IMG/VR virus record: IMGVR_UViG_3300023284_001240
Span: 1 to 34,321 of that record
Strand: one strand, 5' to 3'
DNA length: 34,321 bases
Source of the DNA: a virus
The notes beneath the pieces are model-generated. The model saw nothing but the letters and a program-made list of their open reading frames with translations, had not been told where the DNA came from and searched no databases. Position 1 is the stretch's first letter. Each line of letters opens with the position of its first letter. Positions 6,493 to 34,321 of this stretch are shown piece by piece. A program made the position numbers and the translations under genes.

Positions 6493-6781
6493 AGCAGCAA
6501 GTGATTCTAGGAGGGTCGATAAGACCCATGTTGAAATCGAGAAAATCAATGAGGCATTGCGTAATAAGATTGACAGCCGGCGAATTATCACGCACAATTT
6601 CACAACAACGTCGGAAGAGGCCATTGAGCACAACCTCAATCTTGTCCCAACTTCTGTTTTTGCCGGTGTTGGAACAGGGGCCGCAATAATAAGCAAAGGG
6701 GCGACGGCTTGGACGAAAAAAAGGATCTACCTGATAAGCTCGGTGCAACCGAACAACGAAGTCCCACTCCTGGTCCTGTAG
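6467..6781 (+). CDS. Small phage tail-associated protein
   Basis: I choose the GTG start at 6467: GAGG at 6457-6460 precedes it at good spacing, and the longer frame has a Cys/Ser-rich unlikely start. The 104-residue protein has a charged helical N-terminus (about 1-40), then beta strands (HNFTTTSEEAIEHNLNLVPT) ending in a WTKKRIYLISS and VPLLVL strand pattern. Such C-terminal patterns are common in small phage fibre-tip or baseplate-adjacent proteins. It overlaps the 851-residue gene by 26 bases and the next gene by 73. Confidence 0.6.
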   Translation: MVTNTKELEAASDSRRVDKTHVEIEKINEALRNKIDSRRIITHNFTTTSEEAIEHNLNLVPTSVFAGVGTGAAIISKGATAWTKKRIYLISSVQPNNEVPLLVL

Positions 6782-7119
6782 ACGGATCAAAATATAAGAT
6801 GGCCAGAGCCGGGAACTGGATGTTTGAGTTTAATCAGCCTGCCGGAGTCCTCGTCAGAAACACCGTTTACCCAATCGAATATCATTTCTCAGCAACAGCA
6901 AACGGATATGTCACGGTAGTCGATCGGTTCAATGAAGATCAAATTAAAACGATTGTCATCAATTCTCAAGGAATCGTTCCTCTTATTCCGATTTTGGTCG
7001 ATAAAGAGACTGTGAAAAACATTGCTCGGTTTACTGTGTTGAGAGAAAAATCTAAGGCCGAAAGATTGTCTTGGGAAGAACAAAATGAGATGTTGAAACT
7101 TGCCGGATTCGTGAAATAA
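6709..7119 (+). CDS. Hypothetical phage structural-region protein
   Basis: Starts with TTG at 6709, supported by AAGGGG at about 6695-6700, and overlaps the upstream gene by 73 bases; an ATG at 6799 lacks an SD. The 136-residue protein has a charged leader, a beta-rich core (WMFEFNQPAGVLVRNTVYPI, then YVTVVDRF) and a Glu/Lys-rich C-terminal helix ending LKLAGFVK. No family recognised. It is the last gene before the terminator-like hairpin at 7148, so it closes the 1-7.1 kb unit. Confidence 0.55.
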   Translation: MDEKKDLPDKLGATEQRSPTPGPVDGSKYKMARAGNWMFEFNQPAGVLVRNTVYPIEYHFSATANGYVTVVDRFNEDQIKTIVINSQGIVPLIPILVDKETVKNIARFTVLREKSKAERLSWEEQNEMLKLAGFVK

Positions 7120-7137: not shown

Positions 7138-7186
7138 AAGGACACAGATCCCACTTGCATCGCGCAGGTGGGATTTTTTATTTATG
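7138..7186 (+). promoter_or_regulatory. SD-hairpin-U-tract-ATG element, copy 1
   Basis: AAGGACACAGATCC at 7138-7151 matches 13 of 14 bases of AAGGACATAGATCC at 32861-32874, and both are followed by a strong hairpin, a T-run and the next gene's ATG. The ATG at 7184 has no conventional SD except bases buried in the hairpin's 3' arm (AGGTGGGA). If the hairpin folds, AAGGA lies 14 linear bases from the ATG. T4 genes 25 and 38 are known to use a hairpin to bring a distant SD near the start; a similar role here is inference. Confidence 0.5.
7148..7179 (+). terminator. Rho-independent terminator directly before a start codon
   Basis: Stem of 11 pairs: ATCCCAC (7148-7154) with GTGGGAT (7168-7174), extended by TTGC with GCAG (one G-T pair), loop 7159-7163, then a run of six T ending at 7179. 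It lies 29 bases after the upstream stop and only five bases before the next ATG. It probably ends most transcripts from the tail region. Confidence 0.75.
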
Positions 7187-7906
7187 GGAACAGCCAGCAT
7201 TACTTCCGCGGTCTCAGGCCAGACATTAACCGCCGCATTTTATAATACCAATCTAAATAACATCCTCAATCAGCTAAACGGCAATGTGGACGCCACGAAT
7301 CTTGCCGATGCCGCAGTGACAACCGCAAAAATCGCCGCCGGCGCAGTCACGTTCATCAAGCTTTCAGCTTCCGGGAATTATGGGCCTTGGACCGGCGCGT
7401 GGGAATTTGACTCGGCCGTCAATTTCGACGGAGCAGTTGACTTTGATTCAACGGTTGATCTGACCGGTGCGACGATTTTGGGGGCAACCCCATTTGTTTT
7501 TGAGGGCGCTACGGCCAATGATTTTGAGACATCTGTTGCGGTCGTGGATCCCACCGCTGACCGGACATTGACCATCCCGGATGAAGATGTGAATCTCGGC
7601 GAACAAGTTGTCAAGGTATGGGGTAGGGTTAGTTATTCGGGTGGCACTCCAACTCTTGATGACAGTTTTAATGTGACAAGCATCGGGGATACTGGCGTTG
7701 GCCTTCTAACTGTCACGATTGCAACAGATTTTGCCAGTGTGAATTATGCGATTGCGCCTGGAGTCAACCGGGACGATGCAGGTGACGGTGCGGTCATCAC
7801 ATATTTTTCTCAAGCTGCGGGAAGTTTTGTTCTCAGCATTGAAAACTTGTCTTCTGCGGCAATCGACCCGACTAATCTTGGATTTAAAGCAACAGGGAAT
7901 CTTTAA
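7184..7906 (+). CDS. Fibre-like structural protein
   Basis: A protein of 240 residues, low in charge, rich in Thr, Ala, Asp and Gly, with no signal peptide. The N-terminus (GQTLTAAFYNTNLNNILNQL, then NLADAAVTTAKIAAGAVT) is a common opening of tail-fibre or head-fibre proteins. Residues about 105-145 repeat the module of the protein at 249 (FEGATANDFE, DPTADRTLTIPDED). The last 90 residues are beta-rich with SGGTPTLDDSFNV, typical of a fibre tip. It starts right after the hairpin element at 7138 and is followed two bases later by the next gene. Confidence 0.65.
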   Translation: MGTASITSAVSGQTLTAAFYNTNLNNILNQLNGNVDATNLADAAVTTAKIAAGAVTFIKLSASGNYGPWTGAWEFDSAVNFDGAVDFDSTVDLTGATILGATPFVFEGATANDFETSVAVVDPTADRTLTIPDEDVNLGEQVVKVWGRVSYSGGTPTLDDSFNVTSIGDTGVGLLTVTIATDFASVNYAIAPGVNRDDAGDGAVITYFSQAAGSFVLSIENLSSAAIDPTNLGFKATGNL

Positions 7907-9410: not shown

Positions 9411-12400
9411 ATGCCCCGAGCCACGCTTGAATCTCTTTTCGGTGGGAATGGAAAACAGAAACCGCAACAACCAACCCTTGATCAAATTTTTGCATCCGAC
9501 CAAAAAAGATCCCCAATAAAACAGATATTTAGTGCGGAACCCGGGGAAGAGCCGATCCGTATCCGTGGCGATAAAGCCGTTGCTTTTGATATCGCTGGAT
9601 TCCTTGGAAAGAAAGCGCTTCGGCATCAGATCCAGAAAATGGGGCAGTACAATCGAAGCGCCGTAACAGGAGCGTTGCGGGCGGCGGAGAACGTAGTTCG
9701 GATCCCGCGCTTTCTTTTGGAAGCAGCGCTTTCAGCTTCAGCGAGTCCTATTGACGGGCCACAGGTCACGCCTTTTAGAGCCCCAAAAGCACCAACCCCT
9801 CGAATCTTCCAAGGCAATCCGGTCGAGCGCGTGTTCGCTGACATGGCCAAAGAAACGGATGTCTTTCACCAAAAGTACGGTCCTAAACCAGAAGAGATGC
9901 AATCTTTCATTCAGGAATCAATCAAACAGGGCAAACGACCGGATCAGAAGGATCTTGATCGGTTCGTGCGTGATAAAAGCCTCAATCTTGAGAAGCTTGT
10001 CGGCGCCGGGAATTATCCAGAAGCCGCGAACTATATCGGCCATCAAGTGCTTTTGAATGCTCCGTACATGCTCACGACTCTCGGGCTGACGATTGCAACC
10101 GGCGGCGCATCGCCGGCGCTCCTGGGATTTGCAACAGCGTACGGCGCTGCGCAGCAGTACGGGGAGATTGAGGAGCGCCCAGACATCTCTCAGCAAGAAA
10201 AGCTTGAGGCATCCTGGTTATCCGGTCTGGCCGAAGGCATCCCTGAGATGGTTTCAGCGCGGGTTTTCCCTTATGCCGTTCGCTTATTTAAGACGGTCGG
10301 AACCAAGGCCGGGAAAGCCGCGATTGTCGGCGGACTTAACCGTGCGGTTGCTAGCTTGAAGGCCGTAGGGAGCCCGATTCTCTCCGAGGCCGCGGAAGAA
10401 TTCGTGACAGAAATCGCCCAAAACATGGTCACCCAGCATTACGCGATTGAGGACGGTATTACGAGGAAAGAAGTGCTTCGGCGAGCCACTGAAGCGGCTG
10501 TCATCGGCGGGGTTTCCGGTGGATTATTTCATGTGCCAGCGTCAGCTTTGCTCGGACTTCAGAGAGCGGAATCGACCAAAGAGATGACCCGGGAACAGCT
10601 CGTCCAAATGCACGCTGAGATCACGCTTCAGCTTAAAGGTATCGAGGGTCTTAAACCCCCGGAATCTGTGACCGCGGACGCGATCGCTGCCCTTGATCAG
10701 ATAGAGAAAATGTTGGCTCGGGAGACCCATCAGGACGAGGGCGCCACCAATTTTGAGGAGAACATCATCCCGGAAATCGCGGCTGAGACCATCGTCGATC
10801 AAGCTGAAAGGGGATGGGATCCCGCGGAAAACACCAGACTCCACCAGGAACTCGCAGAAGTTATCCAGAATGAAGCTGACACACTCAGGGAAGCCAACGA
10901 ATTAGGGCGTGTGACAGGTAAAGGGGCAAACCTCTACTTAACGCCTGAAGGTAAGACGTTAAGATTCCAAAGCGTGCTCCTCAAAATGCCGGATGGCAGC
11001 ATTCCCGAGACCGATCAAGACTATGTTGCGCTTGCCAGATTTAGGCTTGAGAAGGGCCAAGGACAGGAATCCAGTCTAGATGAATATAAGGCTGTCAAGT
11101 TCCTACTTGAGAATGGGAAGGTAGTTAAAGCCGAGGAGATCGTGAATTTAGCATCAGAAGAGAATATCGCTCTCAAAGAGGGTGCTACGGCGTACGGTGA
11201 CGTGGCTGAGGCTGTGGCCGTTGCGCAATCGAAGGCGACTTGGTATCAGCAGCTATCATCTCGGAGAAAGGCTCTTATACAGCAGACCTGGGCGAAAATC
11301 AAGGCCCGTGGATGGGTGGATTTGAGGGGTGAAATCCTTGAAGATCCCGGCCAGATCGCCACCGCTCTTTCGATCTTTCGAAACCCCTCAATCGAGCAGT
11401 TCCACGCCCTCTATCTGGATGGAGAAAATCGGGTGATTGCGCACACCATGATCACAAGCGGCCGGGTTGACGGAGTGGAGCCAAAAGATGCCGAAGTCTA
11501 TTTTAAGATCGGGGATCGAGCCCGGAGGACGGGTGCGGCAAAAGTGGTCCTTTTGCATAATCATCCTTCTGGTCGCGCGCAACCCTCAAAAGAAGACGTT
11601 GCTATGACTGTGGCAATGGCGCGGCGTGTGCCTTTGGGAGTCAATCTCTCGCATATCGTGATTGATGACGGCGAATATTCAGCGATCACGCCAACCGGAA
11701 CAGATTCAAAAATTGAATTTGGAGAATTTGATCTTTCCCGGTCCTACGACTTGGCAAGAGGCGAGCAGATACAAGACCCGGACGACATTGCCCAACTGTT
11801 CAGAACCGTACAGCTCGGGCAAAACAACGCCAGTCTCGTTTTGATGGACAAAGGGAATCGAGTGCTTGGGATCGAGAACATCCCGGGATCTTGGCTCGGC
11901 AAAAAGATGTCTGCGAACCTCAATGAGATCATCCGGGACAAACTCAAGGAATACGGAGCCGGGAGTTATGTCATCACTTCCGCCCAGGAAGAAATCAAGA
12001 ATCTTTCACCCGCTCTTTTACCGCCCAGAGTCCTGGATGTCATTCAAGTGACTGACGATGGATCGTTTGAGTCCGTTCGTGAGAAATCGGTAGGTTATTT
12101 CGGATCCCGGGTTCCAGATCCAACACCGAAAGCAAAAAGACTCTTTGAGGAAGGAGCTCCTTACGGGAAGCAATGGTTTACGGATGCCGAACAAGCGATT
12201 GAAGAGCGAATGCCAGCTCGGGCCCCACGTGAGCAAGTGGAAGGAATCCTTCGATCGTGGGGAGTGAAGACAGCAGAACTTGAAGACACCGGGCTCTCTG
12301 AATTTTTGCTTTCAAAAGAAACGTTTACGAAACAAGAAGTAATTGATTTTATTCGGGCGAATCAGATTGAGGTTCGGGAGGTTCTCCGGGGCGACTATGA

Positions 12401-15400
12401 GAACTTGCTCACATCCGAGAGCGATACATTACAGATGCGACAGACCATGGAAGACCAACTGACGAGGATGTATTCATCTGATGTGGATAAGGCGGCTTGG
12501 GAAAATTACGACGCAGGTGGGAAAGAGTTTCTGCAAGAAAAATATCCTAATGAAATAGCGCAATACGAAAGACTCGTAGCTAAGCATATCGAAGCATCTG
12601 AGCGAATACGAGAAAGCGGTGTAACGGGACCCACCAAATTCGCATCCCATCAACTCCCAGGCGGAGAGAATTACCGGGAAGTGTTGCTGACATTGCCGTC
12701 AGCCGAATCCACTCCTGTCCAAACGAAGGATGGAAAATGGACGTTAGATGTAGGCCAAGGGCAGACGATGGGCGTTTATGAAACCGAAGCAGCAGCTATT
12801 GAAGGAGCGAAAAAGTGGGGACAAACGGGCTTTAGAGGTGGGCATTTTGACGAACCCAACATCCTCGCACATGTCCGTTTAAACGACCGCACGGATTCAG
12901 AAGGCCGAAAGATTCTTTTCATTGAAGAGCTTCAGAGTGATTGGGGGCAAGCATTAAGAAGAGGCAAGGATGTACCAAAAATGCCTTTTGCCAAAATATG
13001 GCACGAACTCGCACTCAAACGAATCCTGCGAATGGCAACAGAAGAAGGATATGACGCGATCGGGTGGACGACAGGGGAACAGCAGACGGATAGATATGAT
13101 TTAAGCAAGCGCCTGATGGAAGTGAAAATCGGGCCGGGGGGCAGAAGTCATGTTTTGGATATCGATGCTTGGGACAAATCTGGTGAACATGTAATCAGGC
13201 AAAGCGATATCCCGAAAGAAAAATTGCAGGATTATATTGGTAAGGAATTAGCGGAAAGAGCTTTACGAGAAGGTGCTTTACAGCAGGTTAAATCTTATGG
13301 AGGACTGGATCTCAAAGTCGGCGGGGAAGGCATGAAAGCCTTTTACGACCGCATGATCCCGCAATTCCTTAACAAGTACACGAAGAAATGGGGCGGCCGC
13401 GTCACCGAAACGACAATCGAATCAAAGATCGGGAAGCAGGACGTAAGGTATACGCCAAATTTCGAGGTTCGAACCGCACTAAGAAAGAACGACAATCTTG
13501 GGTTTGACAGCACAACTCAAGCCCTTGAAGCAATTTTAACGCATCCTGATTTTGCGCAACGATGGGATGTTCCCCGCGTTGATGCTTTAATCATCGAAGG
13601 ATGGCGAGAAGATCAAGTGGGGGCATTGGAAAGGCCGCCTGTTCACGCTCTTGAAATAACCCCATCCATGAAATACGACATCACCATGAAAGGACAGTCG
13701 ATGTTCCGGGAGGCCCCGGAACCTTACGGCCGCGAGATCGACAGAGACAAGCTAGAGCGATTGAGAAAAGCCACGGCAAAAGCAAAGGAAGTCCTCACGC
13801 AATATGAGCAGAAAAACCTTGAGCAAGCACATGAAACGATTCAGTCAAAGCCCGCAAAAGAACGGATATCGGCAAGGGCCAGCCTTTCAAAGTTTGTGAC
13901 GAATGTGCGCACGTCTTTTATCAGCGCATTTTTGCCGGTCAAACAGATGGAACGGGAAGTTTACAAAATGGCCGGAGAAACGCAGCCAAGACTTGATATT
14001 GCCCGGAAACTTGAGCAGGTAGCCGGCGCCCGGGGAAAGGCGGAAGCAGACATCGTTGAGTTTGAGAGGGAAGTCTTAAAGCCGATCAAGGCTCATTATG
14101 ACGATTTCAACGTCTATCTTTTTCTTAACCGGACGATCGACCGCCTAAAAACTGGCCTTGACGCGCAAACTCAACAGATGTTTTTTTTCAAAAATCCGCG
14201 GCGGGTTGGCGGATGGACAGTTGAACGTGCTGAAGCGGCATTACGTGGTCTGCAAAAAAAGATTGGCGTTTATGAATATGCTCGTCTTGAAGCCGCGGCG
14301 GCTGTGTTCCAGCGCCACACCGAGAAGTCTCTTCTGCTCCAGGTCCAATCCGGAAGGATGTCGCATGAGCTTTTTAATACCATCAAAGGGATGAACGATT
14401 TTTACGCGCCGTTCAAGGTCATGAAATACTTTGAGGAAATGGAATCGATTAAGGGAAGTGCCGGCCGTAGGATTGCAACAACCACACAATTGACAAAAGC
14501 GATCGTCGGCATCACGGATGAAGATTTTAAGATCCAAGATATTCTGCAAGCCACCGCCGAACAGATTTATAAATCCCGGATCTTGGCTGAGAAAAACCTG
14601 AAGATGAACGAAGTCGCCAAGCTGACTCTTTTGGATAAAGAAGGGGCCCTGATCCGGCAGCTTGAACCGGGTGAGGACACGCGGGAAGGCTACTCTGAGG
14701 TATCGTTTTTTACGGACGGTATTAAAGTGTCCTATGAAATGCCTGAAGCTGTCGCAGAGCCTTTAAACGGTCTCAACCAGACGCAGACAGGCCAGTTTGC
14801 AAAAGTGCTTGCTGTGGCAGCGGTTCCAATGCGCATGGGCGCAACGTCGGCTAATCTTGCGTTTCAGGTTGTGAACCTTGTTTTTGCCGATCTGCCGCGC
14901 TCAAGTTTGGTCTCAAAGTATGGAGTCACTAAAGCGGAAGACCTAATCCGATTCCCACTTGAGTTCATTTATTCGTTTTACACTTCTTTTGGAGCGAATG
15001 TTTTCGGACAAGACAATGAACTTTACATGAATTTTTTGAAAAGTGGGTCAGCGAACTCGACCATTGCGCGCGTGCTCCGGCCGGCCGCATTTAAACCGCG
15101 TCTGCTTGGCCGTAAAATTTATGATCCCCGTAACATTCTTGAGACGATGGACCATATCTCAAATGCGATTGAAGAAACAAACAAGATCCTCGGATTTAAA
15201 CGCGCGTTAAGGATGGAAGGTTTTGCAAAGCTTTCTAAGGCCGAACAGGTAGCCAAGCTTCAGGAGATCGTGGCCGAGGTCAGGAACTATTCCGGAAGTC
15301 CGGATTTCTCGCGGCGAGGACGTGTGACCGGGACCGCGAATCTTCTTTTCATGTTCTTGAACGCTCGCATCCAGGGTGTCACCGCTGATTTTTCTCGGAT

Positions 15401-16571
15401 GTCCGGTAAAACAGGAGCGAAAGAGGCTGGGGTTGCGTGGGCGAGGATGATGACCGCAATCGGGATCCCTGCACTTGCTTTAGCGCTTGTGAATCATTCC
15501 GATGACGAACTTGAAAAAGATTTTTATCAGGTCTCAGACGTTGAACGAGAAAACTATTTCATGATCCCGACCGAGAAATTCTTTACAAACCAACACGGCC
15601 AGAAAGTCAGGGAATATTATCGGATCCCGAAACGTGAGATCGTCAAGCTTATGTCGAATCTGATTGAGAAGGCGGTCGAATATGCGAAGAAAGACAACCC
15701 CTTTGCCTTAGCCGAATACGCCGCGTATTTCCTTCAGGACATTTTCCCGGTCAATATTCAGGGTGAAACGGTCGAAGAGGTCGGCGAAAGCGTTTTGGCG
15801 AGCACAAATCCTTTGATCAAAGCGCCGCTTGAATATACGCTTGGCCGAAACTTTTTTTTCCATCGGGACATTATCCCGCGAAAGCTTGAGAAGGTCTCTC
15901 CGGCGCTTCAGTACACGGATCTCACACCTGAGGTTTACAGGAAAGCCGGTGAAAAACTAGGTGTCTCTCCGATGAAACTTTATCAGCTCGTCAGGTCTTT
16001 GACCGCCGGACTGTTCACTCAATTTGATATTTTGGAGCCGTTACCCGGTCGCAGCAAGCTTTCAACGATGCCGATATTCAAAAGATTTTTCCGGTCCGCT
16101 TATGTTGATTCAAAAGATTTTGTGGACAAGATCCGTACTTTCCAGACAGCCGGCGAAGATCAAAGGATCACGCTTCTCAGACAAGCCGAAGATTTTTATG
16201 AGGTGCTCAAAGACCTGCCGCCAAAAGAACAGATGGCAAAACTCAAGCCGATTAAGGAACGAAACAAAGCCTTATACAACAAGATCGAGGATGTGATCAA
16301 AGCCGAGCATGTGGGTTTGAATTGGCAGGACCGGTGGATTAAAGGGCTTGGGGTCAGGAACGAGGTCAGATCAAAATTTATTTATAGCATGCTTCGGGAA
16401 ATGCCGCAAGACGAACGCTCTAAAGCCCTTGCGATTCTAGCAGCTAAGAAGGTCGTCTCAAAAGAAGTGATGAAACAGATCATCGCTTTGACGCTTGTTG
16501 GAAAGTTTAAGGACGAAGTGTCTAACAAAAAACTTCTTGAGAAAACCATTAAGGAGCTTGTTCAGGCATGA
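9411..16571 (+). CDS. Giant polyvalent phage protein with RadC/JAMM domain
   Basis: A protein of 2386 residues. The first 400 include several hydrophobic helices (about 205-250 and 370-385) and SEAAEEFVTEIAQNM. A RadC-type JAMM metalloprotease fold spans about 640-770: E662, then H716-N-H718-P-S-G and S726/D729 form the expected zinc ligand set. A phage-specific domain at about 1100-1430 carries GGHFDEPNILAHVRLNDR, IEELQSDWGQ (1172 on) and GWTTGEQQ. The last 600 residues hold membrane-like helices (about 1800-1835 and 2010-2030) and the conserved polyvalent tail. Such proteins are thought to be injected with DNA and act in the new host. RadC-like domains sit in DNA-repair or anti-restriction settings; the actual substrate is unknown. 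Confidence 0.8.
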   Translation: MPRATLESLFGGNGKQKPQQPTLDQIFASDQKRSPIKQIFSAEPGEEPIRIRGDKAVAFDIAGFLGKKALRHQIQKMGQYNRSAVTGALRAAENVVRIPRFLLEAALSASASPIDGPQVTPFRAPKAPTPRIFQGNPVERVFADMAKETDVFHQKYGPKPEEMQSFIQESIKQGKRPDQKDLDRFVRDKSLNLEKLVGAGNYPEAANYIGHQVLLNAPYMLTTLGLTIATGGASPALLGFATAYGAAQQYGEIEERPDISQQEKLEASWLSGLAEGIPEMVSARVFPYAVRLFKTVGTKAGKAAIVGGLNRAVASLKAVGSPILSEAAEEFVTEIAQNMVTQHYAIEDGITRKEVLRRATEAAVIGGVSGGLFHVPASALLGLQRAESTKEMTREQLVQMHAEITLQLKGIEGLKPPESVTADAIAALDQIEKMLARETHQDEGATNFEENIIPEIAAETIVDQAERGWDPAENTRLHQELAEVIQNEADTLREANELGRVTGKGANLYLTPEGKTLRFQSVLLKMPDGSIPETDQDYVALARFRLEKGQGQESSLDEYKAVKFLLENGKVVKAEEIVNLASEENIALKEGATAYGDVAEAVAVAQSKATWYQQLSSRRKALIQQTWAKIKARGWVDLRGEILEDPGQIATALSIFRNPSIEQFHALYLDGENRVIAHTMITSGRVDGVEPKDAEVYFKIGDRARRTGAAKVVLLHNHPSGRAQPSKEDVAMTVAMARRVPLGVNLSHIVIDDGEYSAITPTGTDSKIEFGEFDLSRSYDLARGEQIQDPDDIAQLFRTVQLGQNNASLVLMDKGNRVLGIENIPGSWLGKKMSANLNEIIRDKLKEYGAGSYVITSAQEEIKNLSPALLPPRVLDVIQVTDDGSFESVREKSVGYFGSRVPDPTPKAKRLFEEGAPYGKQWFTDAEQAIEERMPARAPREQVEGILRSWGVKTAELEDTGLSEFLLSKETFTKQEVIDFIRANQIEVREVLRGDYENLLTSESDTLQMRQTMEDQLTRMYSSDVDKAAWENYDAGGKEFLQEKYPNEIAQYERLVAKHIEASERIRESGVTGPTKFASHQLPGGENYREVLLTLPSAESTPVQTKDGKWTLDVGQGQTMGVYETEAAAIEGAKKWGQTGFRGGHFDEPNILAHVRLNDRTDSEGRKILFIEELQSDWGQALRRGKDVPKMPFAKIWHELALKRILRMATEEGYDAIGWTTGEQQTDRYDLSKRLMEVKIGPGGRSHVLDIDAWDKSGEHVIRQSDIPKEKLQDYIGKELAERALREGALQQVKSYGGLDLKVGGEGMKAFYDRMIPQFLNKYTKKWGGRVTETTIESKIGKQDVRYTPNFEVRTALRKNDNLGFDSTTQALEAILTHPDFAQRWDVPRVDALIIEGWREDQVGALERPPVHALEITPSMKYDITMKGQSMFREAPEPYGREIDRDKLERLRKATAKAKEVLTQYEQKNLEQAHETIQSKPAKERISARASLSKFVTNVRTSFISAFLPVKQMEREVYKMAGETQPRLDIARKLEQVAGARGKAEADIVEFEREVLKPIKAHYDDFNVYLFLNRTIDRLKTGLDAQTQQMFFFKNPRRVGGWTVERAEAALRGLQKKIGVYEYARLEAAAAVFQRHTEKSLLLQVQSGRMSHELFNTIKGMNDFYAPFKVMKYFEEMESIKGSAGRRIATTTQLTKAIVGITDEDFKIQDILQATAEQIYKSRILAEKNLKMNEVAKLTLLDKEGALIRQLEPGEDTREGYSEVSFFTDGIKVSYEMPEAVAEPLNGLNQTQTGQFAKVLAVAAVPMRMGATSANLAFQVVNLVFADLPRSSLVSKYGVTKAEDLIRFPLEFIYSFYTSFGANVFGQDNELYMNFLKSGSANSTIARVLRPAAFKPRLLGRKIYDPRNILETMDHISNAIEETNKILGFKRALRMEGFAKLSKAEQVAKLQEIVAEVRNYSGSPDFSRRGRVTGTANLLFMFLNARIQGVTADFSRMSGKTGAKEAGVAWARMMTAIGIPALALALVNHSDDELEKDFYQVSDVERENYFMIPTEKFFTNQHGQKVREYYRIPKREIVKLMSNLIEKAVEYAKKDNPFALAEYAAYFLQDIFPVNIQGETVEEVGESVLASTNPLIKAPLEYTLGRNFFFHRDIIPRKLEKVSPALQYTDLTPEVYRKAGEKLGVSPMKLYQLVRSLTAGLFTQFDILEPLPGRSKLSTMPIFKRFFRSAYVDSKDFVDKIRTFQTAGEDQRITLLRQAEDFYEVLKDLPPKEQMAKLKPIKERNKALYNKIEDVIKAEHVGLNWQDRWIKGLGVRNEVRSKFIYSMLREMPQDERSKALAILAAKKVVSKEVMKQIIALTLVGKFKDEVSNKKLLEKTIKELVQA

Positions 16572-18484: not shown

Positions 18485-18858
18485 GTTACGCATTTGGTTT
18501 CTATTTCCGCTCGAAAGGCGAGCGCGATTATGCGGTCCTGCTGCAACAATCTCAGGAAATGGGAGAGATCACGCGATGGAAATACGAGCAGCATTATCAC
18601 TTGACGGTGAACAATCGGGAAGTGTGCGAGATCATTCCGGACTTCACGGTTTGGTATCCGGATTCTCGTATCGAGGTTCATGAGATCAAGGGAGGGCAGT
18701 TTGCGAAAACAAGGGCGTGGAGCCTGAAAAAAAAATTGTTTCAAGCGCTGTACCCGTGGATAACGTACCGGACGATCGATACCTACGAGCACAGACGACG
18801 GAAAAAGGCGTATCGGACTTGGATGAAGGATCGGGGATGGCAAACGATTCAGATGTGA
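18481..18858 (+). CDS. DUF1064-type PD-(D/E)XK endonuclease
   Basis: Start chosen at the coupled ATGA rather than an upstream frame extension. The 125-residue protein has SKGERDYAVLL near the N-terminus (E14), the strand IIPDFTVWYP with D54, then EVHEIKGG giving E68-x-K70, and a C-terminal basic helix. This is the PD-(D/E)XK nuclease core of DUF1064, commonly annotated in phages as a Holliday-junction-type or generic endonuclease. It probably acts in DNA recombination or processing. The following glycosyltransferase gene starts inside its 3' end. Confidence 0.7.
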   Translation: MSYAFGFYFRSKGERDYAVLLQQSQEMGEITRWKYEQHYHLTVNNREVCEIIPDFTVWYPDSRIEVHEIKGGQFAKTRAWSLKKKLFQALYPWITYRTIDTYEHRRRKKAYRTWMKDRGWQTIQM

Positions 18859-20183
18859 AAATGATATGGCCAATACTCACACTCAGCCTAGCCATTCGGT
18901 TGTGGGCCATCAACTGGGGCCTGCCTGAGACATACCATGCTGACGAACCGATCGTCGTGCATCATGCTTTGGAATACGGTATGGGCAGCTTAAATCCTTA
19001 CTTTTTCAGGATCCCGCCTCTGACCAGCTACATTCTGTTTATATTTTACGGGATTTATTATCTTGTGGGTGGCTTTGCGGACAAATGGGATTTTGCGTTT
19101 TCATTTCTCGCCGATCCTTCGGAATGGTATCTCATAGGGCGAATCTTACTGGGCGCGTTCGTAGGTACTGGAAGTGTTTATTTGATCTACCGTTTGGTCA
19201 AAAAACATTTCACCGAAGGGTTGGCACTTTTAACTGCCCTTTTCTTAGGGATCTCATTTCTGCATGTCCGGGACAGCCATTATATCTACGCGGACATTCC
19301 TTTGGTCTTCTCGATCATCTTGGCTTTCATTGCTTTCGGAAAAGGGCCGGTCTGGTCCGGGGCAGCCATCGGATTAGCAACTGCTTTTAAATACAACGGC
19401 ATTTTACTTTTAATTCCGTTCCTGTATTTATACCGGGATTCTTGGAAGGGAATTTTTAAGGCCGGGATTGCTGGCATCGTCACATACTGTCTTTTAAACC
19501 CATTCTCGATAATTGATTTTAAATTCTTCCTTCAAGAAATGGCAGCCGAGGCCCAAGTCCATCAAGGGACACCGTTTCTTCATCACATTCAGTATTCGCT
19601 ATTCGGTGCGATTGGATACCCCATGGCGGTTTTTGCTTTTTTTGGTATGTTTTCTATAGGTAAATTAAAGACATCAATGATGCTTTTTACCGTGGCTTAT
19701 TACCTTATTTTGTGGAGATTCGGGCAGTTATACCCTAGATATGTTTTACCAATGATTCCTTTTCTTTGTTTCTTCGCTGCGGATACGGTTTTAAGATTCA
19801 GAAAATATTGGGCTGTGCTTTTGGTGATACTCGCGGTGATGCCGAATCTTTACAAAGTCATAAAGTGGGATCATTTAATGACCCAAAAAGACACCCGGAC
19901 ACAAGCAAAGGAATGGATCCTAGAGAACATTCCAGACGCAAATATTGTTGGAATAGCGAGTCCTCAATATTTACCACGAATAAATTTTATGCAGAAAGGG
20001 AAAATTGATTATTACATTTACGAATATTGGATCAAAGATTTTGAAAGAGTCAAAGAATTTAATCCCTACGCTGACAAGAGACAAGAGCCAATCGACAAGC
20101 AGCCGATTACCGGCGGGCCGTTTACTTTAGGTGAATTGATTTGGAGAGAGAGAAACGGGCAAATAATAAGGATTATAAAATGA
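18837..20183 (+). CDS. GT-C family membrane glycosyltransferase
   Basis: I choose the ATG at 18837, with AAGGA at 18826-18830. The 448-residue protein has about ten to eleven membrane segments. The first large periplasmic loop carries HADEP (residues 34-38), the acidic pair that coordinates metal and lipid-sugar in PMT/ArnT-like GT-C enzymes; RDSHYIYADIP (145-155) is the second conserved loop motif. The C-terminal soluble part (about 350-448) resembles the periplasmic tail of these enzymes. It would transfer a sugar from a polyprenyl carrier to an envelope acceptor. Phage copies of such enzymes are known in serotype conversion; the acceptor here is unknown. It is coupled to the nuclease genes on both sides. 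Confidence 0.8.
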   Translation: MANDSDVKMIWPILTLSLAIRLWAINWGLPETYHADEPIVVHHALEYGMGSLNPYFFRIPPLTSYILFIFYGIYYLVGGFADKWDFAFSFLADPSEWYLIGRILLGAFVGTGSVYLIYRLVKKHFTEGLALLTALFLGISFLHVRDSHYIYADIPLVFSIILAFIAFGKGPVWSGAAIGLATAFKYNGILLLIPFLYLYRDSWKGIFKAGIAGIVTYCLLNPFSIIDFKFFLQEMAAEAQVHQGTPFLHHIQYSLFGAIGYPMAVFAFFGMFSIGKLKTSMMLFTVAYYLILWRFGQLYPRYVLPMIPFLCFFAADTVLRFRKYWAVLLVILAVMPNLYKVIKWDHLMTQKDTRTQAKEWILENIPDANIVGIASPQYLPRINFMQKGKIDYYIYEYWIKDFERVKEFNPYADKRQEPIDKQPITGGPFTLGELIWRERNGQIIRIIK

Positions 20184-26364: not shown

Positions 26365-26701
26365 GTTTAGGGCGTGGGATAGACGTCGAAAAATATGGGA
26401 ATACTTTACTTTATCGGAGGCGATTTCTGGAACTCTCCATGATATTAGTTTAGATTTAGAAAATGAATGTCAACACACCGGCATCAAGGCAAAGAACGGT
26501 GTGATTTATGAGGGGGATATTTTGAGGACAGAAGACGGCAAACATATCGTTCAGGTAATCTTTCGGGATGGTTGTTTCTTAGCCGAAAAAGATAGAGATG
26601 AAAATTACATAGCTGTCCATAACAGGTTTGAAATCATCGGTAATGTATTCGAGAATCCAGAGTTATTAAAAGCAAAATACCCGGAATCGGACGAAGGATG
26701 A
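26351..26701 (+). CDS. YopX-family phage protein
   Basis: A 116-residue protein starting at the ATG at 26351. It has REIKFRAWDRRRKIWEY, QHTGIKAKNGVIYEGDIL and a final FEIIGNVFENPELL, which are the standard YopX landmarks. YopX proteins are widespread in phage accessory regions; their biochemical role is not established. Coupled by ATGA at 26698 to the O-antigen ligase-like gene. Confidence 0.85.
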   Translation: MREIKFRAWDRRRKIWEYFTLSEAISGTLHDISLDLENECQHTGIKAKNGVIYEGDILRTEDGKHIVQVIFRDGCFLAEKDRDENYIAVHNRFEIIGNVFENPELLKAKYPESDEG

Positions 26702-27999
26702 TTACCCTCAGAGAAAGATACTCAATTCCATTGATCTTTTTAATTGCGCCGATTTTTTATTACGCGGACCGAATCAGTCCAAACATTCGAGATCAGCAAT
26801 TCACGTTTTTGATGGTAGCAGCTTACATCATTTTGGCCGTGCATCATCCGAATCAGTGGATGAGAGCATTTTTAGCGTATGCTGGGGTCATGGGACTGAT
26901 GTGGCGCGGGCCGATGACGGATTATCGGTTGATGTTCATTGGAGCGGGCGCAATCATTCATTGGGCTGTGCTGACAGCCTCAGGACTTTCAGAAGGAAAG
27001 ACGTACAGATATGCGGCTCTTGGGATCTTGATTTTCACGATTATCTCAATCGTTGTCCAAAAAGCAGGCGAAGACGTTTATTTTTTCCAGCAATTCGCAA
27101 AGTACCATCCTTCCGGTGCCTGGACGTTACCAAATTACATGGGTATTTACGCGGCCGTCACAGCACCTTTCGTGGCGTATCTTCATCCCACTCTCTTTTT
27201 TATTGCCATTATCCCAGCTCTGTATGCACGGTCTGTCTCGGTGGTGGCTGTTTTTATGGGTGTAACGGTTCTTTATTTTTTTAAAAAATCGTGGCTGAAA
27301 AGAGCATGGATACTGGCGGTGATTTATTTCGTGTTTGCGATTGGCGTGTTTGCGTCGTTTCAATCGGACATGAAGAAAGGCGGACAGCCTTATCGCCGGC
27401 CGATGGTTTGGAAAATGGTGTTGAGTAAGGCTTTTCGATATCCGGTGTGGGGGCAGGGCCCGGGATCATACAAAGAAACGTTTTTTTTGGAATTCCGAGG
27501 GATAGAGAAAGATTATTGGCTCAACGTGAAGTGGGATCCGAAGAACGAAGAAGCGTTCAAGAATAGGATTCTGGAAATCGCAAAAGACAACGGAACGGAC
27601 ACGACACGGCTTGAGGCAATCCATTTCAAAGACCCGAGAGGACCTTTTTGGAATATGAAAGGCATTCTCGATGAGCTGAGGGGAAAACGCGAGAACCCGC
27701 TGCATGGATGGGCGTGGGATCATCCCCACAACGAATACATTCTTTTATTTTATGAATTTGGACTGATTGGACTTTTGATTTTTTGTGGGTATGCGGTCAG
27801 TCTTATCCGAGATGCTATACGAACGGCTTATGCAAGTAAAGAGGCGATGAATGATGCGCGCTCTCTTTTATTTTCATTTCTGGCGATGCTAGCGCTTGCT
27901 TTCTTGCATTTCCCTTTTTCAATCCCGCGTCTGTCGATCCCGTGCATCGTGATTGCGGCGCTTTTAGAGAGGAGAATTAAAGATGAGTACAGAGAATAA
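26698..27999 (+). CDS. O-antigen ligase/polymerase-like membrane protein
   Basis: A 433-residue protein with about ten membrane segments. A large periplasmic loop (about 225-345) carries RRPMVWKMVLSKAFRYPVWG, GQGPGSYKE and WDHPHNEYILLFYEFGLIGL, the Wzy_C signature with its conserved Arg and His. These enzymes join or polymerise lipid-linked glycans at the periplasmic face (WaaL ligases, Wzy polymerases). Phages use such genes to change host surface glycans; together with the GT-C enzyme at 18837 this may alter receptors. Activity and substrate are not predictable. Start is coupled to the YopX gene. Confidence 0.8.
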   Translation: MITLRERYSIPLIFLIAPIFYYADRISPNIRDQQFTFLMVAAYIILAVHHPNQWMRAFLAYAGVMGLMWRGPMTDYRLMFIGAGAIIHWAVLTASGLSEGKTYRYAALGILIFTIISIVVQKAGEDVYFFQQFAKYHPSGAWTLPNYMGIYAAVTAPFVAYLHPTLFFIAIIPALYARSVSVVAVFMGVTVLYFFKKSWLKRAWILAVIYFVFAIGVFASFQSDMKKGGQPYRRPMVWKMVLSKAFRYPVWGQGPGSYKETFFLEFRGIEKDYWLNVKWDPKNEEAFKNRILEIAKDNGTDTTRLEAIHFKDPRGPFWNMKGILDELRGKRENPLHGWAWDHPHNEYILLFYEFGLIGLLIFCGYAVSLIRDAIRTAYASKEAMNDARSLLFSFLAMLALAFLHFPFSIPRLSIPCIVIAALLERRIKDEYRE

Positions 28000-30789: not shown

Positions 30790-32835
30790 ATGTACTCACA
30801 AGACCTCTACGCCCAAATCGAGAAACTGGATCTCTCACAGGAAAATGACAGGAAAAGCCTGATCGGGATCATTGATACATGGTCGGATGATGACGTAGAA
30901 TCAAAAAATGAGCGGGCCGCGGTTTGGGCGCAGAACATCCATTATTTGATTGGTGATCAATGGATTCGCTATAACGATCACATCCACCGATGGGAAACCA
31001 TCCCTTACACCGATGCCAACAGAAACATTGACCGGCCCGTAACAAATCACATGCTCAGGTGGGTCACTGTCAATGCTTCCGGGTTTACGTCAAGACCATC
31101 CATCCAGGTCGAGCCCAACTCAGAAGAACAAGAAGACAAAACATCTTCGAAGGTAGCGAACGTCATTGATGACTATTTGTGGGAAAAGCTGGAGAAGGAC
31201 GATCACTATTACGAATTGGCGTTATGGGCACTTTGTTGCGGGAACTGTTTTCGGAAAGGAATCAAGAAGAGAACCAGGCGGTTTCTGAAACAGGAGACGG
31301 AAAGTAAACAAGAAATAAAAAATTATCTGAAAGAAGTTGATTGCGAAATCGTATCACCGTTTGAGATGGCCTTTGCTGGCCTTCCGAAGAGATGGAGGGA
31401 CATAACGATCCTGATGCAATCTCAGATCAGGAATATCCAATGGATAAAAGATCGATTTGACATTGAAGCGCCCGGCTACACTGGTGAAGCGAAAGAAGTT
31501 ACGAAACAATCAAGCTATTCTTATACGCTTACGCTCGGAGAAGGACTGAGACAAATCGTCGAAGGGCAATCCGTTTTAGGTCAGAGTTCGCGGCGGCAAA
31601 CCGGCCAAAATCTTGACAATACCGCTGTCATAAAATGGATGTACATGATACCAAGTTCCAAATATCCGAAAGGATTCATGGCGGTGATCGCATCGAGCAA
31701 GCTGTTATACCTTGGGGCATCAGACACTTTTTACCTTGATGGTGATATCTGGCATCCGTACACGTCATGGTCGTTCTGGAAACAGCCCGGGAACATCTGG
31801 GCGGCGTCTTTAGTTCAGCAACTCCTTCCGATTCAGCGCCGAATCAATGCCATTGATGCCCTTCTTGCTTATAACCGAAAGACTGTTGCCGTGGGTACAT
31901 GGTTGCTTCCAAAGGGGTCAAACATCCCATCAGGGACGATTATGGGCGTTCCTGGCCAAGAACTCGAATATTCTCCAGATCCTGTGACTGGCGCGAAACC
32001 GGAAAAAATACCTGGCACCCCACTTCCAAATCAAGTCGTCGAAGAGCGGCAAATACTTTTAGCAGACGGTGACCTTATCGCTAACGCAGCCGATATCAGG
32101 TCTGGCAAGAACCCATCAGGGGTCAATACCCTCGGACAACTTGAGATTTTGACTGAGCAGGCAGAGAGAAGCGCGTCAAAACAGGTGGAGACCTGGGAAA
32201 AGTTCCTTGAACGATCGGAACAGATCGACCTTCTCAATTTCCAGGAGTGCTATCAAGCACCCGATCCGAAGACGATACGAAAACTGAAGAGCATGTCAAA
32301 GGATCTCACGGGCCAAGATTGGGACCAATTCATAGGAGCAGACCTTCGAGAAAACGCCTCTGTTCGTGTAGAACCAGGATCCACAAAGCTTCTCAGACAA
32401 CGGACTGTATTGCGTCTTGCAACAGCCGGTTTCTTGGGGGATGTGCTGGCTGACCCGTATAATCAAAAGAAATTTCTTCAGGAATTCGGACTCGGGAAAT
32501 ACTACACCGAATCAAATGTCGATGTTGTGAAAGCTGAAAAAGCGATTGAAATGATGAAAGGCGGGATTTATTTGCCGGTCCTCGAAGACGTGGACAATCC
32601 GGATATTCAGATTATGGTGCTCGCCCGTTACATGAAAAACCCGAAGTATATGGACCTACCCCCAAAAATTCGCTTGCTTTTTGAACGAAGATACGCAGAA
32701 TATGTGGGTATGCTCGCTAAATATCCTACGATTCCTGCCGATGAATCTCAAGTAACCGCGGGTGGCAAGAATGTGAACCCGAATGAAGGTATTGATAAAA
32801 TTTTAGAGTCCAGGAAATCACCGATGGAAATTTAA
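30790..32835 (+). CDS. Portal protein
   Basis: A 681-residue protein of the podovirus (P22-type) portal size. The start WAQNIHYLIGDQWIRYN, the later RPVTNHMLRWVTVNASGFTS and the core with WHPYTSWSFWKQPGN and LPIQRRINAIDALLAY follow the fold of large portals; the C-terminal part is helical (IDKILESRK at the end). It forms the dodecameric DNA-entry ring that binds the terminase and the tail. It lies downstream of the terminase genes as expected. A 144-base piece (32241-32384) reappears inverted at the window's right end. Confidence 0.85.
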   Translation: MYSQDLYAQIEKLDLSQENDRKSLIGIIDTWSDDDVESKNERAAVWAQNIHYLIGDQWIRYNDHIHRWETIPYTDANRNIDRPVTNHMLRWVTVNASGFTSRPSIQVEPNSEEQEDKTSSKVANVIDDYLWEKLEKDDHYYELALWALCCGNCFRKGIKKRTRRFLKQETESKQEIKNYLKEVDCEIVSPFEMAFAGLPKRWRDITILMQSQIRNIQWIKDRFDIEAPGYTGEAKEVTKQSSYSYTLTLGEGLRQIVEGQSVLGQSSRRQTGQNLDNTAVIKWMYMIPSSKYPKGFMAVIASSKLLYLGASDTFYLDGDIWHPYTSWSFWKQPGNIWAASLVQQLLPIQRRINAIDALLAYNRKTVAVGTWLLPKGSNIPSGTIMGVPGQELEYSPDPVTGAKPEKIPGTPLPNQVVEERQILLADGDLIANAADIRSGKNPSGVNTLGQLEILTEQAERSASKQVETWEKFLERSEQIDLLNFQECYQAPDPKTIRKLKSMSKDLTGQDWDQFIGADLRENASVRVEPGSTKLLRQRTVLRLATAGFLGDVLADPYNQKKFLQEFGLGKYYTESNVDVVKAEKAIEMMKGGIYLPVLEDVDNPDIQIMVLARYMKNPKYMDLPPKIRLLFERRYAEYVGMLAKYPTIPADESQVTAGGKNVNPNEGIDKILESRKSPMEI

Positions 32836-32847
32836 CGATATTCCCAC

Positions 32848-32906
32848 AGCGCGGAGCGCTAAGGACATAGATCCAGGCGGAAGCAATTCTGTCTGGATCT
32901 TTTTTT
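32848..32906 (+). terminator. Double hairpin with U-tract before the next ATG
   Basis: A small stem AGCGC-GGA-GCGCT (32848-32860) is followed by AAGGA, then a 14-pair stem (32869-32882 with 32887-32900; two G-T pairs) capped by GCAA, a stable tetraloop, and a T-run to 32906. The next gene's ATG begins at 32907 without a normal SD. The same AAGGACAYAGATCC prefix occurs at 7138. It can terminate transcription and/or bring AAGGA within about nine linear bases of the ATG. Confidence 0.7.
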
Positions 32907-33239
32907 ATGATTAAACTCGGATACAAATACCCAAAATCGAATATGGAAGTCGCAAGCACTTCCGAAAGTCATAAACAAGAAACTCATTATCCACGCCTTG
33001 ATATCGGCTCCGAATACGGAGACTACCCAAAAGTAACGCTTCCGGTTAAAGGATCTGACATCGGAAAAGAGATCACCGCAACCGTCAAGCTGAAAGTTAC
33101 AAAGATTGCGGAAGTCAGTAGCGAGAAAAAGAGTAACAGAGCGTACAGTTTCGACGTTTTAGAAATTCATTTTAACCGGGACTCAGATGACTCAAAAAGC
33201 GACCGTTTGAATTCCATGAAAAAAGAGTACGGGGGATAA
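32907..33239 (+). CDS. Head-region hypothetical protein
   Basis: A 110-residue protein whose ATG immediately follows the U-tract. It is polar with a beta core (PKVTLPVKGSDIGKEI, TVKLKVTKIAEVS, AYSFDVLEIHFNRD), and a flexible C-terminus. Position after the portal suggests a small head or capsid-accessory protein. No signature is certain. Its start may depend on the folded element upstream, since an internal ATG at 32943 also lacks an SD. Confidence 0.55.
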   Translation: MIKLGYKYPKSNMEVASTSESHKQETHYPRLDIGSEYGDYPKVTLPVKGSDIGKEITATVKLKVTKIAEVSSEKKSNRAYSFDVLEIHFNRDSDDSKSDRLNSMKKEYGG

Positions 33240-33514: not shown

Positions 33515-33946
33515 TTGGCTCATGGGAAGATGCAAAAAGCCGCGGTGTTATACCTCGGCGATGATGGAGGAAAGAAACGATGTGGCCGATGTATGATGTT
33601 TTTGAAGGACATATCGAAATGCTCGATTCATGGGAGCAAGGTCAATATCACGAAGTCGATGGTGTGCGGGTTCTACATTCACGGGGATCCGATGACTTCA
33701 AAAGATCATCCGCCGATGGAATTTGTGAGTCCGGAAGAATCAGGGCTTATTGAAACAGGCTCGGATAACGGCACACATTGCAAATCGTGCGAGTATTCAA
33801 ACGCTGAAGTCAATCGCTGTCATGTCGTTAGCGGCGTTATCGAACCTGATGGATGCTGCAATGGTTGGGAAAAACAAGAGAACCATGAAGAAAATGAGAA
33901 ACAGAACCGAATCCGAAGCGCGTCGAAAGATTACGCAAGGTCATAG
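33515..33946 (+). CDS. Cys-rich, HiPIP-like double-module protein
   Basis: Starts with TTG at 33515 (AGGA upstream); an ATG at 33530 is an alternative. The 143-residue protein has two related Cys modules: CGRCMMFLKDISKCSIHG with VCGFYIHG, and CKSCEYSNAEVNRCHVVSG with DGCCNGWE. Spacing resembles phage high-potential iron-sulphur-like or zinc proteins found next to capsid genes. The tail is charged (EENEKQNRIRSASK). Metal type is not determinable. Confidence 0.6.
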   Translation: MAHGKMQKAAVLYLGDDGGKKRCGRCMMFLKDISKCSIHGSKVNITKSMVCGFYIHGDPMTSKDHPPMEFVSPEESGLIETGSDNGTHCKSCEYSNAEVNRCHVVSGVIEPDGCCNGWEKQENHEENEKQNRIRSASKDYARS

Positions 33947-33961
33947 AACCAAGGAGATATC

Positions 33962-34309
33962 ATGTTGAATTTAATTACTCTGTTTTATAAAGGATTGTTC
34001 GGGATGTTTGAAGATGCGGCTGGTGATGCGGGCGCCGGCGGTGGGGCTGGGACCGCAACTGGAGGGGATGAAGCAGGCGGTGGCGCGGGAGATGATGCTG
34101 GTGATAAGGGCGATGAAGTTAAGGATTTTAAAGCGCTCTATGCGGAGTCAGAGGGAAAGCTAAAGGCATTTGAAGGCGTGGATCCTGGTTCTACACGAAC
34201 AGAGGCGTTTTCTCGAAGGTCTGCTCCTATGAATTGGTCCCAATCTTGGCCCGTGAGATCCTTTGACATGCTCTTCAGTTTTCGTATCGTCTTCGGATCG
34301 GGTGCTTGA
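33962..34309 (+). CDS. Scaffold-like Gly/Asp-rich protein, truncated by chimera
   Basis: Start at the ATG at 33962, with AAGGAG at 33951-33956. Residues 1-15 are hydrophobic, 16-50 are Gly/Ala/Asp-rich, and a helical part (DFKALYAESEGKLKAF) follows. Such acidic, Gly-rich starts are common in scaffolding or head-maturation proteins beside portals. Only about residues 1-72 are genuine: from base 34178 the sequence is an inverted copy of the portal gene, so the remaining 43 residues are an artefact of the join. Confidence 0.4.
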   Translation: MLNLITLFYKGLFGMFEDAAGDAGAGGGAGTATGGDEAGGGAGDDAGDKGDEVKDFKALYAESEGKLKAFEGVDPGSTRTEAFSRRSAPMNWSQSWPVRSFDMLFSFRIVFGSGA

Positions 34310-34321
34310 TAGCACTCCTGG
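34178..34321 (-). repeat. 144-base inverted duplicate of the portal gene
   Basis: Bases 34178-34321 are the exact reverse complement of 32241-32384, within the portal gene, and the copy runs to the window's last base. The join falls in GTGGATCC, an eight-base microhomology. This is the shape of a foldback chimera made by strand-displacement amplification or assembly rather than a biological repeat. Confidence 0.9.

Follow-up and report, generated by a model that had tools for sequence, protein, structure and literature searches.

Terminator-form hairpins between an SD-like word and the start codon at two gene borders of a podovirus-like genome

Two blocks of about 50 bases, starting at 7138 and 32861 of the virus record IMGVR_UViG_3300023284_001240 from an uncultured phage (the window, i.e. 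the whole stretch of 34,321 nucleotides that was analysed), have a common layout: AAGGA-CAY, a hairpin of 13 or 14 bp (-20 to -22 kcal/mol), a U run and the ATG of the next gene. With moderate confidence, each element is interpreted as an intrinsic terminator set inside the split ribosome-binding site (RBS) of the downstream gene, the sequence making termination appear more certain than the bridging of the Shine-Dalgarno (SD) word to the start codon. The evidence consists of the predicted fold and geometry of the two elements, the recurrence of the order in other phages and the covariation of the stem in the family phrog_3982.

In the proposed mechanism, the RNA polymerase arriving from the upstream module would meet the hairpin and the U run, and we infer that a fraction of it stops just 5' of the ATG. 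The read-through transcripts would keep the hairpin folded, removing approximately 31 nt of linear distance and placing AAGGA 9-10 nt from the ATG. The 30S subunit could then initiate with an AAGGA that the folded hairpin brings within reach, despite the 41-nt linear spacing. The SD would sit in the 20-30 nt or so needed between a terminator and the upstream stop codon, and one short border would serve to end transcripts and to dose and translate the downstream gene. If this is true, one short hairpin sets the RNA and protein amounts obtained from the next phage module, which would explain how genes that touch a terminator and lack an ordinary SD are translated. The T4 gene 25/38 exception would be widened into a broader design, gene callers that seek an SD only a few nucleotides upstream would be warned, and a compact terminator-RBS part would become available.

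Anatomy of the two elements

The features of both elements, and those of the related blocks in a second genome (G001), are collected in Table 1.

Table 1. Coordinates of the two elements, of their flanking genes and of the G001 blocks.
Feature	Position	Strand	Remark
Stop codon of the upstream 136-aa ORF (6709-7119)	7117..7119	+	26 nt 5' of the element 1 stem
Element 1 AAGGA, SD-like	7138..7142	+	
Element 1 hairpin, terminator form, 13 bp, -20.1 kcal/mol	7146..7176	+	
Element 1 tail TTTATTT	7177..7183	+	T run TTTTTT at 7174-7179 carries on out of the stem
Gene 1, 240-aa tail-fibre-like protein	7184..7906	+	ATG directly 3' of the T-run tail
Stop codon of the upstream portal gene (30790-32835)	32833..32835	+	33 nt 5' of the element 2 stem
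Element 2 AAGGA, SD-like	32861..32865	+	
Element 2 hairpin, terminator form, 14 bp, -21.6 kcal/mol	32869..32900	+	
Element 2 tail TTTTTT	32901..32906	+	
Gene 2, 110-aa ORF of unknown function	32907..33239	+	ATG touching the T run
G001 blocks	2454, 5908, 10150, 15103, 19385 (reverse-complement positions)	-	late-gene borders

The prefixes read AAGGACACAGATCC (7138-7151) and AAGGACATAGATCC (32861-32874) and lead into hairpin, T run and ATG (7184 and 32907), exactly as the initial annotation had described them. Its statement that the hairpins differ in sequence while prefix and layout are kept also holds, since the elements have in common the SD, CAYA and the outer stem and differ in their inner stems and loops. 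The stem foot makes up six of the 14 bases of the common 14-mer. Alone, such a 14-mer is not rare, since chance would give about 114 pairs in the window that agree at 13 or more of 14 positions; its occurrence at the same place relative to two terminators has a chance of 1.9e-7 per alignment, or about 3e-6 over 17 offsets.

Both sites carry a stable, GC-containing hairpin with a U run immediately 3', which is the criterion for an intrinsic terminator, and the U runs of 6-8 start directly at the stem foot. The predicted folds are much more stable than those of shuffled sequences (z = -6.1 for element 1 and -6.5 for element 2). The two elements are the best intrinsic-terminator candidates of the window, each at the top of the list for its window half.

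The order of a split RBS is likewise present at both sites: AAGGA, a 3-nt gap, the hairpin, 7 or 6 nt, and the ATG. In the minimum-energy folds the AAGGA-ATG distance of 41 nt decreases to 10 nt in element 1 (CAC plus TTTATTT) and to 9 nt in element 2 (CAT plus TTTTTT), both normal spacings for initiation (T4 functions with 5 and 11 nt). Folded spacings of 14 and nine had been proposed; nine is correct for element 2, and 14 is true of element 1 only with the foot pairs (A-U, G-U) left open. In the minimum-energy fold of element 2, AAGGA is partly paired with the U run (mean unpaired 0.23-0.54), and this weak predicted pairing would count against bridging.

The downstream genes had both been said to lack a normal SD. 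This is valid for the gene at 32907, whose best linear match reaches -3.1 kcal/mol and which has no usable linear SD, but not for the gene at 7184, where AGGTGGG (-6.4 kcal/mol) is present 11 nt 5' of the ATG and is hidden within the 3' arm of the stem. Residues 8-61 of the tail-fibre-like protein match phrog_892, its conserved N-terminal part, which supports the ATG at 7184.

Two further candidates in the window were set aside. A third prefix-like copy, AAGGTCATAGAACC at 33937-33961, has two mismatches, is within chance and has no hairpin, and is followed by the normal SD AAGGAG and the ATG at 33962. The sigma-70-like boxes found 18 nt before both AAGGA words (AAATAA at 7114, GATATT at 32837) differ in sequence, and the first includes the upstream stop codon.

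Comparison with known systems

In phage T4 genes 38 and 25, a hairpin between SD and AUG shortens the spacing, as supported by mutational and DMS data (PMC3014915). The linear-to-folded distances change from 22 to 5 nt and from 27 to 11 nt (Nivinskas 1999; Malys and Nivinskas 2009, reviewed in PMC3014915). T4 gene 38, read directly as a control, has the order AAGGAG-AGGGGC-UUCG-GCCCUU-CUAAAU-AUG, which bears out the earlier claim of a T4-like geometry, though without the U run. The T4 and window sites have in common the SD, the hairpin, the short tail and the AUG, the spacing being reduced in the window from 41 nt to 10 and 9 nt. On the other hand, the T4 stems are shorter, are followed by CUAAAU or UUACUAUA instead of a U run and are not terminator-form, whereas the candidate bridging hairpins of the window have the full intrinsic-terminator form and span a longer linear gap. 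Judged by their sequence, the window elements thus resemble T4 split RBSs in anatomy, with the terminator form added.

Other systems are similar in part. In the Vibrio phages Phriendly and VPp1, an intrinsic terminator marks the late border behind the capsid gene, and read-through presumably feeds the next gene; however, their SD comes after the terminator (hairpin-U run-GGAG-ATG), whereas in the window it comes before, the ATG touching the U run. Hairpins that sequester an RBS, and attenuators, are also placed near a start codon where they could control the next gene, but the proposed SD of the window lies 5' of the hairpin and not within it; folding would therefore enable initiation instead of blocking it.

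In E. coli, a tR2 reporter reached maximal termination only with more than 27 nt between stop codon and hairpin (PMC4824070). In the window this gap measures 26 nt at element 1, just short of the threshold, and 33 nt at element 2, beyond it. Since a terminator behind a translated gene needs a spacer of this length, the SD occupies a spacer that is required anyway. No description of a terminator acting as an SD-AUG bridge was found in the open-licence papers searched, which is weak evidence of absence.

The layout in other phages

Queries of IMG/VR with the portal, TerL and the 110-aa ORF gave no relative close enough for comparing the window's two stems, and the tail-fibre ORF gave partial matches only. 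The exact prefix plus T5 occurs there at seven loci, none with the hairpin-ATG layout. Rfam had no match, and a nucleotide search of phages with the window's 7-kb ORF as the query returned none either.

A generic IMG/VR pattern (AAGGA-N-CC...GG-N-T6-N-ATG) matched at least 120 stretches and led to a distant relative, G001 (IMGVR_UViG_3300001536_000003, 24.5 kb, loci L356 and L357), whose TerL is 34.5% identical to that of the window over 455 aa (E 1e-79). This genome has five blocks, each opening with a promoter-like GTGATATAAT box, a short gap and an SD-like word (AAAGGTA, AAGAGTA, GAAGGAA, AAAGGAA or AGAGGAA; a clear SD in four of the five). A T-rich gap then separates this word from the hairpin, to which T run and ATG are attached. 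The blocks precede the genes for the portal, the MCP, and proteins of 307, 243 and 165 aa, the last being tail-fibre-like. At three of them the block ATG is the gene start, whereas before the MCP and 307-aa genes it opens an ORF of only 2 or 5 codons and the gene starts slightly later. Order, SD and tail persist from block to block although the hairpins differ, and the combination of a same prefix and layout with a different hairpin is thus repeated in a second genome. The closest annotated relatives of the G001 portal and MCP belong to the TM7 phage DolZOral124_53_65 and to spring-water phages, which is a weak hint of a Saccharibacteria-type host. The terminator-block scan found no such element in the TM7 phage MG269973 or the spring-water phage MW202566, and in MW202803 it found only weak hairpins, lacking an SD. 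The promoter-AGG-T run-ATG pattern of G001, searched across genome contigs, yielded no convincing SD-hairpin-ATG copies among the matches listed.

The second occurrence is in phrog_3982, a gene of approximately 100 aa directly 3' of the major capsid gene, present at 80 loci (L264-L343) and in Vibrio phages (L344 and L346 are Phriendly and VPp1), and unrelated to the window. In one group of this family a hairpin is followed by a U-rich tail of about 7 nt and the ATG, the hairpin-to-ATG distance being nearly always 7 nt. In an alignment of 19 sequences, 96.6% of the stem cells are paired and both sides have changed in 8 of 11 pairs; none of 500 shuffles reached the observed values, and the pairing drops to 34-65% in slid controls. 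An SD of -4.3 kcal/mol or stronger (e.g. AAGGAG, CGGAG or GAGGGAGA), overlapping the A-U/G-U foot of the stem, stands just 5' of the hairpin in 14 of 23 members. The remaining members keep hairpin, U run and ATG with little or no SD before the hairpin, and the Vibrio phages have the ordinary terminator-SD-ATG order. The hairpin and the ATG spacing are therefore conserved in this family, and the upstream SD is common but not obligatory.

Because some of these members lack the SD, other initiation routes exist, and such members would count against the split-RBS reading. Relatives without the prefix, or with normal starts, had been named beforehand as what would tell against it; they occur in part, in this other family, phrog_3982. 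The combination of terminator and SD-bridging hairpin put forward initially is still the best fit and its layout is seen in other phages, with these members as the part that does not follow. A wider reading, which is tentative, is that a fused SD-terminator-U run-AUG border cassette, with its own promoter in G001, might be a standard device of several podovirus lineages. It would end upstream transcripts, lead new ones and position the ribosome, jointly setting module dosing and translation start.

Alternative readings and genome context

The generic IMG/VR pattern was compared with a control in which the SD pentamer was swapped for the scrambled AGAGA, counting strong hairpins that lie no more than 7 nt from the pentamer and using cut-offs partly chosen after seeing the data. 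Among the matches listed, ORFs of 60 aa or more start at the ATG in 16 of 36 AAGGA cases versus 7 of 48 AGAGA cases (Fisher p 0.003), and ORFs of 100 aa or more in 9 of 36 versus 3 of 48 (p 0.025). Several long ORFs in both scans, many of them in the control, seem to have their true start some codons further on, after an ordinary SD, which counts against the split-RBS reading. The scan gives modest support to the idea that SD-abutting terminators mark gene starts. Six loci (L086, L175, L191, L216, L230 and L233) were rejected as gene starts at that ATG, since an SD-like stretch and a start in the same frame lie beyond the U run, and L088 was not relied on, its ORF matching mainly parts of larger tail proteins. 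Two loci on the minus strand, L153 (ORF start 3412) and L235 (ORF start 3135), have CCCCTCAG...CTGGGGG-A-TTTTTT-ATG and no SD before the hairpin.

The alternative that survives best, although it is rather doubtful, is that the elements are plain terminators abutting the next gene by chance. The ATG would then be reached by coupling or reinitiation from the stop codon 48-71 nt away, or be a weak SD-less start, and AAGGA would be part of a purine-rich stretch. The phrog_3982 members that keep terminator, U run and ATG without an SD, together with L153 and L235, agree with this, as do the SD-like words found upstream of 6-10% of the terminators that precede no gene. With the window and G001 left out, a small survey found an upstream SD at 3 of 20 terminators followed by a gene start versus 24 of 414 other viral terminators (about 6%), a non-significant difference that counts against the split-RBS reading. 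However, a clear SD is present at both window sites and at four of the five G001 sites, against that background of about 6%, and a gene start follows an SD-abutting terminator more often than one with the scrambled pentamer. In addition, most other window genes have an SD at ordinary linear spacing, so the host appears to use SDs.

It is improbable that the functional SD is AGGTGGG (site 1) or TGGAT (site 2), both hidden in the 3' stem arm, with the hairpin as a translational brake to be opened and not a bridge. This arm is frequently rich in G and resembles a well-spaced SD, as at site 1 (-6.4 kcal/mol) and in most of phrog_3982, where the arms reach -5 to -9 kcal/mol against the anti-SD at 7-nt spacing even in members without an upstream SD; this competing SD counts against bridging. 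Nevertheless, the arm of site 2 has just -3.1 kcal/mol, weaker than other words of the window that contain AAGGA (-5.4 to -5.8 kcal/mol), opening the hairpin costs about 20 kcal/mol, and a terminator needs a G-rich arm anyway. Least probable is the reading in which the hairpin serves chiefly at the 5' end of a transcript started just upstream, where it would stabilise the mRNA and space the SD, the U run being an unstructured spacer and the terminator form secondary. In favour of this, each G001 block follows a GTGATATAAT box that would start the RNA a few nucleotides before the SD; against it, neither this box nor any common sequence was found upstream of the AAGGA at 7138 and 32861, and terminators typically have U runs of 6-8 at the stem foot.

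The terminator within a split RBS, which remains the preferred reading, belongs to a genome with podovirus-like genes, including TerL (28690), the portal (30790), RecT (22022), a 2386-aa protein and tail genes, the evident genes being all on the + strand. The last 144 nt of the window (34178-34321) match 32241-32384 perfectly in reverse complement. This contig end is probably an artefact of fold-back amplification or of assembly, in which case the end of the ORF at 33962-34309 would be unreliable. The proteins encoded at 18717-20183 and 26698-27999 are mannosyltransferase-like (PMT) and O-antigen-ligase-like (Wzy_C), respectively, and perhaps alter the host surface. The 2386-aa ORF (9411-16571) is weakly similar to large ORFs of the pelagiphage HTVC010P and the Bacillus phage Page (23-25% identity) and is perhaps an internal virion protein.
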